Positions 13,364 to 17,307 of a stretch of 64,000 nt of DNA are shown piece by piece. The notes under the pieces are model-generated. The model made no database searches, was not told where the DNA came from, and saw nothing but the letters and a program-made list of their open reading frames with translations. The translations under genes were made by a program, and so were the position numbers. Within the stretch, counting starts at the first letter, position 1. Each line of letters begins with the position of its first letter. Source of the stretch: Granulicella sp. (GTDB taxonomy: Bacteria; Acidobacteriota; Terriglobia; Terriglobales; Acidobacteriaceae); the NCBI GenBank assembly GCA_025408425.1, contig JANXYX010000013.1, positions 186,001 to 250,000 on the forward strand. The letters are read 5' to 3'.

Positions 13364-15499
13364 ATGAAGAGCATGGCGAATCCCTCACCCCAACGCATTG
13401 ACCTCCGCAGAAGAGTGGGGAATCTTGCCGTGTTTTTCGCTCTGGCGATTGGCTCTTCGCATTCGCTACGGGGCCTGCAGGCCGTCAATACTCCCCCACC
13501 GCTGGAGACCGCTGCATCGATACTATCCCTGACAAACGAACAGGCTAGGCAAGGCTACCCGGTACGACTACAGGGTGTTGTAACCCTGCGAGGCATGGTG
13601 ATTCAGGACAGCACAGCGGGAGTTTGGGTAAATTTTCCGCAGTCCGGCCAATTTGTTCCCGGCGACGTCGTGGAGGTTCAGGGCCATGTCGGACCCGGAG
13701 GATATTCGCCCGAAATCTGGGCAACATCTGCTCAAAAAGTTGGACATCGTCCGTTGCCTCCTCCTAAACCCGTAACGTTTAGAGAATTGAGTTCGGGGGA
13801 CGAAGACGCTCAATACGTTACGGTGTTCGGCCGGGTGCGCTCGATTCAATTGCCGAGAAGCACAATTCCATTTGCGCGGACTTGGCTCAAATTGGCGATG
13901 AAGGATGGGATTGTCGATGTCGCACTGAGAGATGCCGCGGGCATCTCTACGAATCTGCTTCTCGATGCCGATGTGCGGATCAACGCGGTGAGCTTGACGG
14001 CCAAAAATAAAGACAGACAATTGGCTTCTGTCGTTCTCGCAATGAGCGATCTGGACCAGATGACCGTATCGAAGGCCGCCGAGGAAGATCCCTTTCTCAA
14101 ACCTCTCGTTCCCTTGGGCGCCCTCATGCAGTACCGCTCCGGAACCGATTCATATCGACGCGTGCGTGTCGCCGGAGTCGTGAGCTACTCCGATCCGGAT
14201 AGACGACTCATGCTGCAGGATGGACAAAAGGCGATCCTGGTGATGACGCATCCTGCTTTCCCTATCGAGTTGGGAGACAGAATTGAGGTTTCGGGGTTCC
14301 CGGCCCTGGAAGACTCCGGACCAATTCTGGAGGATGCTGTGGTGCGGTTCAAGTCCCATGGGCCGCCGCCACTTCCCACGACGACCCAAGTTGCCGATGT
14401 GCTGTCTGGGGCCTCGCGATGCCGCTTGGTCCGTGTCGAAGGCCATATCGTTCGCAGCGTTAAAGAACCGTGGGGAGTCGAACTGCTCGTGCAGGGCGAA
14501 ACAGGACTCTTGGAGGCAGAACTTCGAAAGTCGTTAAACTCTCTTGGTTTGCTCAACCTGCGCGAGGGCACAAAGGTCGCCGTAACCGGTGTCAGCATGG
14601 TTGATGTAGAAGGGAAATGGGACTACGCCCCAAGCCAGCTGCACAGCAAGTTGCTGCTTCGTTCGGCAAGTGATATTGAGGTTCTCGAACTGCCGTCATG
14701 GTGGACAACCCGTCACGTCATTTACCTCGCGACGGTCTTCGGTCTGCTGATTCTGGTCCTCCTCGGCGTGGTTATTTACAACCAGATTGCTCGCTGGAAG
14801 CTGCAGGTTGTGTTCGACCAGCGCGAACGGATGGCCCACGATGTTCATGACACAATGTCTCAGAGCTTCGCCGGCATTGGCTTTCAACTCCAGGCAATCT
14901 TGAAAGCAATTCCTGAGGGCATGCCCGCTTTGGCGGAGAAGGTTAATCATGCTCGCGAACTGGTCCGCCACAGTCACAAAGAAGCCCGGAAGAGCTTTGT
15001 TCCAATTGAACCCGAAGCGGAGCATGTAATTGAACTGCTTCGTTCGCTTGAGTCCTTGGCGCACGAGATGGTAGCCGGAGGTGCCATCACAATCTCAGTC
15101 TCATCGGCCGGGAGCCCGCGAGCAATTCCAAAGAACGTCAGCAATGAACTTTTACGAATCGGGCAGGAAGCGATCGCAAATTCGGTTCGTCACGCAGACC
15201 CTCAACATCTCAATATCTTCATCGAATACGCTTCGGATTTCGTTCGACTCGAATTACAAGATGATGGGGTCGGCTTTGTGAAGAGTGGCGACTTGCTCGG
15301 CTTCGGCCTACGCGGGATGAGAAGGCGCGCTGCCGAGATTTCGGCCCAATTGAAAATCTACAGCGAGCCTGGACGTGGAACTCGTATAGAGGTCGTTGCG
15401 CCTCTGAAGTCTGCTTGGAGAACCCTACTTGATTTGAACCGATGGCTTGGGAAACTTGGAGCAAGGTCGAGAGCAGCCGGAATTGATCAACAGCTATAG
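13364..15499 (+). CDS. sensor histidine kinase (HisKA_3/HATPase) with large extracytoplasmic sensor
   Basis: RMAHDVHDTMSQSFAGIGFQL phosphoacceptor, HATPase motifs (NELLRIGQEAIANSVRHA, DDGVGF, GFGLRGMRRRA), single TM YLATVFGLLILVLLGVVIYN; start at MKSMANPS. Confidence 0.85.
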   Translation: MKSMANPSPQRIDLRRRVGNLAVFFALAIGSSHSLRGLQAVNTPPPLETAASILSLTNEQARQGYPVRLQGVVTLRGMVIQDSTAGVWVNFPQSGQFVPGDVVEVQGHVGPGGYSPEIWATSAQKVGHRPLPPPKPVTFRELSSGDEDAQYVTVFGRVRSIQLPRSTIPFARTWLKLAMKDGIVDVALRDAAGISTNLLLDADVRINAVSLTAKNKDRQLASVVLAMSDLDQMTVSKAAEEDPFLKPLVPLGALMQYRSGTDSYRRVRVAGVVSYSDPDRRLMLQDGQKAILVMTHPAFPIELGDRIEVSGFPALEDSGPILEDAVVRFKSHGPPPLPTTTQVADVLSGASRCRLVRVEGHIVRSVKEPWGVELLVQGETGLLEAELRKSLNSLGLLNLREGTKVAVTGVSMVDVEGKWDYAPSQLHSKLLLRSASDIEVLELPSWWTTRHVIYLATVFGLLILVLLGVVIYNQIARWKLQVVFDQRERMAHDVHDTMSQSFAGIGFQLQAILKAIPEGMPALAEKVNHARELVRHSHKEARKSFVPIEPEAEHVIELLRSLESLAHEMVAGGAITISVSSAGSPRAIPKNVSNELLRIGQEAIANSVRHADPQHLNIFIEYASDFVRLELQDDGVGFVKSGDLLGFGLRGMRRRAAEISAQLKIYSEPGRGTRIEVVAPLKSAWRTLLDLNRWLGKLGARSRAAGIDQQL

Positions 15500-15725
15500 T
15501 TGCGTGCTGCAACGGTCACCATTACCTGTTGCCGGCATCCCCACGATGGTTCTCAGTGCGGCGGGAGATCGCATCTTCCCCCCAAAGTATGGGAGGCGGC
15601 TCGCAGCTTCCATTCCCGAAGCACAATACGTCGAGATTCCCGACTCAGCGCACGGAGTCACGATCCAATCAGTCGAAGCCGTAAACCGCGAACTGCTGGA
15701 ACACTTCATCGCCGTCGCTGACTAG
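15447..15725 (+). pseudogene. alpha/beta hydrolase C-terminal remnant
   Basis: 'VAGIPTMVLSAAGDRIFPPKYGRRLAASIPEAQYVEIPDSAHGVTIQSVEAVNRELLEHF' is the C-terminal Asp/His portion of an alpha/beta hydrolase with no N-terminal half; overlaps the kinase 3' end. Confidence 0.6.
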
Positions 15726-15906: not shown

Positions 15907-16260
15907 TGGTGGAGGCGGGGAGAATCGAACTCCCGTCCGAAGAAACCAACGACAGAGAGCATTCATGCTTTTCCCAGGTTCATCTTTGTCTCGTAGCCAG
16001 CCCTGAGAACGGGCGAAGATGAGTTGGCCACCAGCCTGATCGATCTCGTCATTGCCGTCCAGGCGGAACAGCTTTGACCAGCCTACTGTGCGACGATCGG
16101 TACAAGCCCGTAGGCGAAGCCTGAGCGATCGGCTACTTAATTATTAAGCAGCAAGCGCGAATTGAGGTTCGGCACTTATAGTTTTGTGAGCGATTACGGG
16201 TGTCCACACCCCGGCATGCCTCTCTGCCACAAGCAACCCCGTCGAAACCATGACGCCCCC
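15907..16260 (-). ncRNA. ssrA: tmRNA (ssrA), canonical copy A
   Basis: Minus strand: 5' GGGGGCGTCATGGTTTCGACGGGG...; tag AHKTISAEPQFALAA followed by TAATAATTAA; 3' GGACGGGAGTTCGATTCTCCCCGCCTCCACCA pairs with the 5' end (including G3.U) with encoded CCA. Confidence 0.96.
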
Positions 16261-16317
16261 ACATAGTGGAGCAGCTTCGAGCGTTGCATTCTGCAGCGCT
16301 GTCAAAGAACTAAATCG

Positions 16318-16323
16318 AGTATA
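16318..16323 (-). promoter_or_regulatory. putative -10 (TATACT) of tmRNA copy A
   Basis: TATACTCGATTTAGTTCTTTGA about 60 nt upstream of copy A; the TAGTTCTTTGA segment is also found upstream of copy B. Confidence 0.4.
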
Positions 16324-16682
16324 GATGACGACATCTCTTGGAGTCGAACCCACGTCCGAAAAAACTTCCAACAGAGAGCTTTCATGCTTTTTCACGTTCA
16401 TCTTTGTCTCGTCATCGACGCTTAGAACGGACGAAGACGCGGCGACGACCAGTCTGATCAATCTCGTCCGACCCGCTCAGACGGAGCAGGGAAGACCAGC
16501 CTACTGTGCGACGATCGGTACAGGCCCGTAGGCGAAGCTTGAGCGATCGGCTACTTATTTAATTAAGCAGCAAGAGCGAACTGAGGTTCGGCACTTATAG
16601 TTTTGTGAGCGATTACGGGTGTCCACACCCCGGCATGCCTCTCTGCCACATGCAATCCCGTCGAAGCCGTGACGCCCCCATC
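16324..16682 (-). ncRNA. second tmRNA-like copy B, tandem, degenerate 3' acceptor
   Basis: 5' GGGGGCGTCACGGCTTCGACGGG, identical tag peptide AHKTISAEPQFALAA, shared pseudoknot region; T-loop GGTTCGACTCC retained but no CGCCTCCACCA 3' end. Confidence 0.85.
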
Positions 16683-16729
16683 TGGAGACTGGCACCAACA
16701 TTGCGTTGGGCACTCAAAGAACTATACCT

Positions 16730-16735
16730 ATTATA
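16730..16735 (-). promoter_or_regulatory. putative -10 (TATAAT) of tmRNA copy B
   Basis: TATAATAGGTATAGTTCTTTGA about 50 nt upstream of copy B, paralogous to the copy A upstream sequence. Confidence 0.45.
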
Positions 16736-16748
16736 GGCTAATCTGCGG

Positions 16749-17168
16749 CTATGCGAATGCCAGCACCACTGCGCCAATCGTGATCAGCGATGCGCCGCCA
16801 ATCTTCATCGGTGTCAGATGCTCCCCCAGAAACAGCCACGCCCCCAGGATCACCAGCACCACGCTCAACTTGTCCACCGGAGCCACGCTTGAGGCAGGAC
16901 CCATCTGCAGCGCTCTGAAATAGCAGAGCCAGGAGAGTCCTGTGCATACCCCGGACAGCACTAAGAACACCCAACCACGCCGCCCAATCTGCGCTAGGCC
17001 GTTGTGCTTCTCCATGCCAATTGCTATGGCCCACGTGAACACCAGGATCACGCTCGTGCGGATGGCCGTCGCGAGATTGGAATCAATCCCAGCCACCCCA
17101 ACCTTAGCCAGCAACGCCGTCGCAGCAGCAAACAACGCGGATAGTAGCGCCCAGAATACCCAAGTCAT
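16749..17168 (-). CDS. EamA/DMT-superfamily small transporter (single EamA domain)
   Basis: MTWVFWALLSALFAAATALLAKVGV...LSWLCYFRALQMGPASSVAPVDKLSVVLVILGAWLFLGE. Confidence 0.85.
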   Translation of the reverse strand: MTWVFWALLSALFAAATALLAKVGVAGIDSNLATAIRTSVILVFTWAIAIGMEKHNGLAQIGRRGWVFLVLSGVCTGLSWLCYFRALQMGPASSVAPVDKLSVVLVILGAWLFLGEHLTPMKIGGASLITIGAVVLAFA

Positions 17169-17307
17169 ACCTCTCAAGATACGCGAGATGCGATTTATCC
17201 TGGTGGTTGACCCGGCATGCAAGAGCAGCGTAACAACTTTCCTTAGCAGCCGATTTCTCTGCGAAAGCTGAAGCTGTCACACCCTGCGCTGCGAACTGAC
17301 CCCAACC

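Follow-up and report, generated by a model that had tools for sequence, protein, structure and literature searches.

The two tmRNA (ssrA) sequences that lie in tandem at this locus are probably the outcome of a xenologous replacement in which one ssrA took the place of another at the integration site; the complete downstream gene (copy B) would be the working gene and the upstream sequence (copy A) a recently broken relic. Replacement is favoured because A is native and syntenic with the genes of its congeners, B belongs to another allele type, the cut falls at a T-loop heptamer, integrases adjoin ssrA in relatives, and Silvibacterium bohemicum offers a related case.

Two tmRNA matches in tandem

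The window, the whole stretch of 64,000 nucleotides analysed, is contig 13:186001-250000 of a draft genome (53 contigs) that is 99.7% complete with 0% contamination. On its minus strand, the Rfam tmRNA model RF00023 has two matches, 15907-16260 (155.2 bits) and 16339-16671 (110.5 bits), both far above the cut-off of 47 bits. A profile search of the whole 4.23-Mb assembly returned no third match above the cut-off. This agrees with an earlier sequence-only reading, which had described two minus-strand tmRNA-like sequences. Its description of both as tmRNA genes holds for B, which is whole and is called by ARAGORN, but not for A, which ends in the T-loop and is not called. The separation, estimated at about 60 nt, is 79 nt.

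The 5′ start, the helices, the common tag ORF and the related leader that had been reported for both copies are all present in the sequence. The copies have a common 5′ end, GGGGGCGTCA, and the same tag, AEPQFALAA, with two synonymous differences between them. Ahead of each is a promoter-leader unit with a TATAAT (A) or TATACT (B) box followed by GTTCTTTGA. Overall, A and B are 85.6% identical. The features of the locus are listed below in window coordinates, from upstream to downstream of ssrA.

16749..17222, minus strand: gene of the EamA family immediately upstream of A, forming the native left flank (PF00892; syntenic in congeners)
16730..16735, minus strand: -10 box TATAAT of A (promoter-like match 10/12)
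16714..16722, minus strand: GTTCTTTGA motif in the leader of A, similar to boxA (conserved across almost every ssrA leader compared)
16340..16679, minus strand: copy A, native ssrA that runs from its 5′ end as far as the T-loop and lacks the 3′ end (RF00023, congener identity)
16563..16592, minus strand: tag ORF of A, AEPQFALAA stop (read from the sequence)
16340..16346, minus strand: CGACTCC, the last seven bases that A has in common with relatives and the putative integrase crossover core (displaced fragments L082, L136)
16261..16339, minus strand: spacer with the B promoter TATACT (16318-16323) and the B-type leader GTTCTTTGACAGCGCTGCA..GCAACGCTCGAAGCTGCTCCAC (homology to B-type loci)
16302-16310, minus strand: GTTCTTTGA leader motif of B
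15907..16260, minus strand: copy B, complete B-type ssrA with CCA (ARAGORN; RF00023, 155.2 bits)
16144..16173, minus strand: tag ORF of B, AEPQFALAA stop (ARAGORN coding part 88-120)
15447..15725, plus strand: alpha/beta hydrolase C-terminal fragment downstream of B (PF00561 positions 182-240 of 245 only)

The GTTCTTTGA motif, with a short inverted repeat (16302-16310, 16714-16722), precedes ssrA in nearly all relatives compared. It is similar to boxA, an antitermination element that is found in rRNA leaders. The permuted tmRNA model RF04321 is weakly matched (61.6 bits) at 16144-16387, but this was rejected, as the acceptor 3′ strand is absent in A and B is an ordinary one-piece gene. The match is an artefact that arises because the 3′ part of A adjoins the 5′ part of B.

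Copy A, a native ssrA without its 3′ end

Copy A is, as judged from its sequence and surroundings, the inherited, vertically transmitted ssrA of this genome. Its own 5′ end is at 16679, beyond the RF00023 match edge at 16671. What remains of it matches the single ssrA of congeners (G002, G378, G031 and others) at 97% identity over its whole length, and a tree of 72 sequences places it among nine sequences that form a same-genus clade (support 99/89). Upstream of A lie glmU and genes for an HD-domain response regulator, a pterin dehydratase, a PCYCGC protein and an EamA transporter, in an order that is also found in congeners.

The 5′ part, the tag ORF and the pseudoknot region of RF00023 are present in A; the acceptor stem, T-stem and CCA are absent. 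The gene reads ...CGGACGTGGGTTCGACTCC, then AAGAGATGTCGTCATC where CACCGCCTCCACCA would stand, and the non-ssrA sequence that follows CGACTCC in the window is AAGAGATG. As the T-stem 3′ strand, the acceptor 3′ strand and CCA are absent, a transcript of A would not be chargeable. The earlier suggestion that one copy is in decay was thus right in substance, since the upstream copy has lost its aminoacylated part. The same losses speak against the proposed second, specialised trans-translation RNA, as does the comparison with related genomes that had been put forward as a check: a pair of this kind was found in none of the congeners sampled.

The columns that are invariant in the 71 other sequences are all unchanged in A, with the exception of the lost 3′ end. 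This lack of point decay implies either that the cut is recent or that constraint still acts on the remainder of A. The best reading of A is that of a promoter-bearing relic that would have been broken recently.

Copy B, a complete ssrA of another allele type

By its 3′ end and its closest matches, copy B is of a different allele type from A, one that occurs mainly in other genera of the family. It has the acceptor stem, T-arm, CCA and tag ORF of a tmRNA, covers RF00023 positions 1-374 and shows zero changes at invariant columns. B is 90-94% identical to the ssrA of other Acidobacteriaceae genera; the value is 92-94% for G286 (genus g48), G318 and G350 (g81), and G358, a same-genus genome in which B-type ssrA is thus also present. 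The B-type genes have a common T-arm, GGGAG-TTCGATT-CTCCC, and most have a common leader, TTCTTTGACAGCGCTGCA..GCAACGCTCGAAGC. The 3′ end of B is of this type, unlike the native CCCAC end. In the tree of 72 sequences, B groups with the B-type ssrA genes (8 rows, support 92/99), in what is a rough tree of a recombining 350-nt gene whose bootstrap has not settled.

Approximately 64 nt upstream of B are similar in G286, G344, G318, G358, G200 and three g48 genomes, and the similarity fades by 16326. The two parts of the allele type do not always coincide. G350 has a B-type T-arm with an A-type leader and is without the shared promoter/leader of ~64 nt, and G006, G291 and G217 have a B-type leader with an A-type T-arm; the alleles therefore recombine. 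SmpB is encoded by a single-copy gene.

A plasmid, phage or virus was considered as the carrier of B and rejected: plasmids and phages gave no match at the sensitivity used, and a 24-base ssrA motif gave none in viral contigs. So many bacteria have the B-type T-arm pattern that it cannot by itself pinpoint carriers, and its single viral match is only a gene end at a contig end. The histidine kinase downstream of B was likewise discarded as a tracer of the donor, its nearest homologue being 40% identical. The hydrolase fragment at 15447-15725 overlaps the end of the histidine-kinase gene and resembles a gene remnant right of B. The flank beyond B has zero genes in common with the loci of relatives, and this downstream region is variable in all of them.

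No terminator-like site was found between A and B, so transcription from the A promoter may extend into B. The T-loop of the broken A contains a -35-like hexamer of B, TCGACT (16342-16347), so that the join may have made part of the B promoter.

The cut site and integrases at ssrA

A tyrosine integrase gene or fragment (PF00589) lies at most 4 kb downstream of ssrA in 10 of the 32 same-genus loci. Such a gene or fragment is found within the same distance in 12 of the 37 loci with an A-type T-arm versus none of the nine with a B-type T-arm (Fisher p = 0.086). The DUF2961 protein beside B-type genes (L139) was ruled out as an integrase by Pfam. Displaced ssrA 3′ fragments occur in G025 (L082) and G200 (L136), where they start exactly with CGACTCCCGCCGCCTCCACCA and are preceded by unrelated sequence. 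Recombination in these elements therefore takes place within or at the edge of the T-loop heptamer CGACTCC, a core defined by the two displaced fragments only, with the window junction as one case.

Copy A retains ssrA to the last base of CGACTCC and nothing beyond, and the chance of a breakpoint on exactly that base is approximately 1 in 340. As A ends there, the cut was most likely made by site-specific integration at the heptamer. The B-type heptamer, CGATTCT, differs from the core at two positions.

In keeping with an island, A is a gene fragment broken at the attachment core. An island would also be expected to restore the target gene by supplying the same gene end from its own sequence, which is not seen here. 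There is no integrase between A and B, which are separated by just 79 nt, or near the locus, and the displaced native 3′ end of A was not found in the assembly within 3 mismatches. In a congener, a 76-nt ssrA 3′ fragment that is 87% identical to B (L177, G288:C7 412346-412421) lies on a contig other than that of ssrA. The A-B junction is absent from all relatives compared and is therefore a single case. A pattern that finds the window returned no other instance of the tandem layout in an 85,488-species collection, and no other locus has a B-type promoter preceded by CGACTCC.

Complete ssrA genes as apparent island cargo

Two complete ssrA genes are present in Silvibacterium bohemicum S15 (G200), of the family Acidobacteriaceae. 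An integrase follows the native gene, which is at 894.6-894.2 kb. A displaced ssrA 3′ fragment with the same orientation lies at 691.5 kb, with another integrase behind it. The T-stem half of this fragment, CCCGC, matches the native gene, and there is no further ssrA fragment between the two. Inside the interval, at 696 kb and 4.2 kb from the displaced fragment, resides a complete B-type ssrA with its promoter. It is adjoined by a Gabija pair, GajA-GajB, which occupies 4227-7933 of L136 (G200:C12 687690-704102), between the B-type ssrA and the displaced fragment.

The 14.5 kb around the B-type ssrA has almost no DNA match in seven congeners, with the exception of ssrA itself and one gene-sized stretch of ~1.9 kb. 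Outside the interval, the sequence that flanks the native ssrA is well conserved in the same seven. The B-type ssrA thus lies in strain-specific DNA within an interval that has the signature of an ssrA island, which suggests that islands carry entire ssrA genes as cargo. The interval of ~203 kb may be an array rather than one element.

Other genomes also have two ssrA genes. G263 (g48) has two complete, diverged copies on C4, at 939 kb and 1207 kb (L142, L143), which are 268 kb apart in opposite orientation and have an unusual leader ending GTTCTTTGAGATGT. On G344:C1, two near-identical B-type ssrA genes with near-identical flanks (L132, 2949 kb; L133, 2488 kb) are 460 kb apart. Other genes are repeated at the same 460-kb spacing, which indicates a large duplication or an assembly fault.

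Probable replacement of ssrA and alternative explanations

The proposed sequence of events would begin with site-specific recombination by a tyrosine integrase at the T-loop of A. By this event A would have been fused to incoming DNA that carries B and begins a short way ahead of the B promoter, with mobile DNA as the presumed delivery route. With A no longer chargeable, B would take over trans-translation with the single SmpB. A would persist as a promoter-bearing relic whose promoter may read into B, and the integrase and the displaced 3′ end of A would since have been lost or would lie outside the assembly. Several points count against this model: a classic island would restore the 3′ end of A, which is not restored; neither an integrase near the locus nor, within 3 mismatches, the displaced 3′ end was found; the A-B junction is a single case; just two displaced fragments define the core; no other B-type promoter is preceded by CGACTCC; and B-type ssrA is also present in a congener (G358). 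An extension of the model is that B-type ssrA genes on Acidobacteriaceae islands, through their altered T-arm (CGATTCT for CGACTCC), replace the broken host gene and resist the same integrases. This is rather improbable; if true, an ssrA island would rescue its host and at the same time close the site to competitors.

The most serious rival, though an unlikely one, is that incoming DNA, for example transformed DNA, was joined by illegitimate or homology-assisted recombination with no integrase, and that the stop in the T-loop is a coincidence. The variable downstream region in all relatives and the lack of an integrase or displaced fragment near the locus fit such a join. However, it leaves to chance that the end of A coincides exactly with the final base of the heptamer, a single position in ~340, and ssrA is an island target in Acidobacteriaceae. 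It is considerably more doubtful that A has been kept as a non-chargeable RNA with a role of its own, perhaps as a regulator or as a leader in the transcription of B. Its good promoter (10/12), the lack of a terminator before B and the retention of every otherwise invariant position, save for the lost 3′ end, would suit a retained RNA; yet the same conservation is expected from a recent cut, no relative keeps such a pair, and the acceptor 3′ strand, T-stem and CCA are absent.

The earlier interpretation as a tandem duplicate bearing its own promoter accounts for the common orientation, the spacing of 79 nt and the promoter and leader on both copies. In-place duplication of ssrA and its promoter, with subsequent decay of one copy, was nevertheless rejected on the identities and the tree, and can be given hardly any credence. 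The copies are 85.6% identical to each other versus 92-97% for each to genes elsewhere. A is closer to congeners than to B, and B is closer to other genera than to A, which argues for replacement and not duplication. An assembly artefact that joins two strains or contigs is conceivable in a draft genome of 53 contigs, but is extremely unlikely: the junction (16339/16340) lies inside a 253-kb contig, contamination is 0%, and the join lacks any long stretch of shared sequence. Replacement at the integration site thus stays the probable explanation.

Comparison with known systems

The ssrA gene is near-universal and normally single-copy, and for this reason the replacement of one version by another is rarely seen. 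Here, the incoming gene and the broken native gene appear to be preserved side by side. The locus suggests that integration hot spots can drive the replacement of a core RNA gene and not only its repair, and it cautions that a second tmRNA match need not signify a duplication. Neither the literature searched nor, with the pattern used, the 85,488 species yielded a broken native ssrA with a complete foreign one immediately behind it.

A survey of tmRNA genes has reported one ssrA in most bacteria and a second or third allele in some; the duplicate calls rejected there were pseudogenes missing one end or fragments from island integration (Hudson et al. 2014, PMC4131195). A resembles such a pseudogene and B such a second allele, although here the two are immediate neighbours in tandem, and one is recognisable as the native type and the other as a foreign type. 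The islands recorded by Islander restore their target gene, and have a 3′ fragment in 3760 cases versus a 5′ fragment in 159 of 3919 (PMC4383910). The ssrA target, the tyrosine integrases beside the ssrA of relatives and the gene fragment that marks the cut are all shared with these islands, and 5′ fragments like A are a recorded minority among them. In contrast, the cut gene here is unrestored, and a complete foreign gene stands behind it with no integrase or island interior between.

The ssrA islands of Dehalococcoides also insert in the T-loop, but use a serine recombinase and leave a complete ssrA (PMC3146451). Complete ssrA genes are carried by phages, as in mycobacteriophages (PMC4131195) and Melnitz (PMC9004378). 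These resemble B as a complete ssrA on a mobile element, whereas B has no phage, virus or plasmid match at the sensitivity used. The permuted tmRNA of RF04321 is matched (61.6 bits) in that the 3′ part of A is followed by the 5′ part of B, but A is without the acceptor 3′ strand and CCA, and B is a one-piece gene. Island-made ssrA fragments and second ssrA alleles are therefore already known, and the present case, in which a complete foreign gene would have replaced the native one at the cut, is a variant of them.
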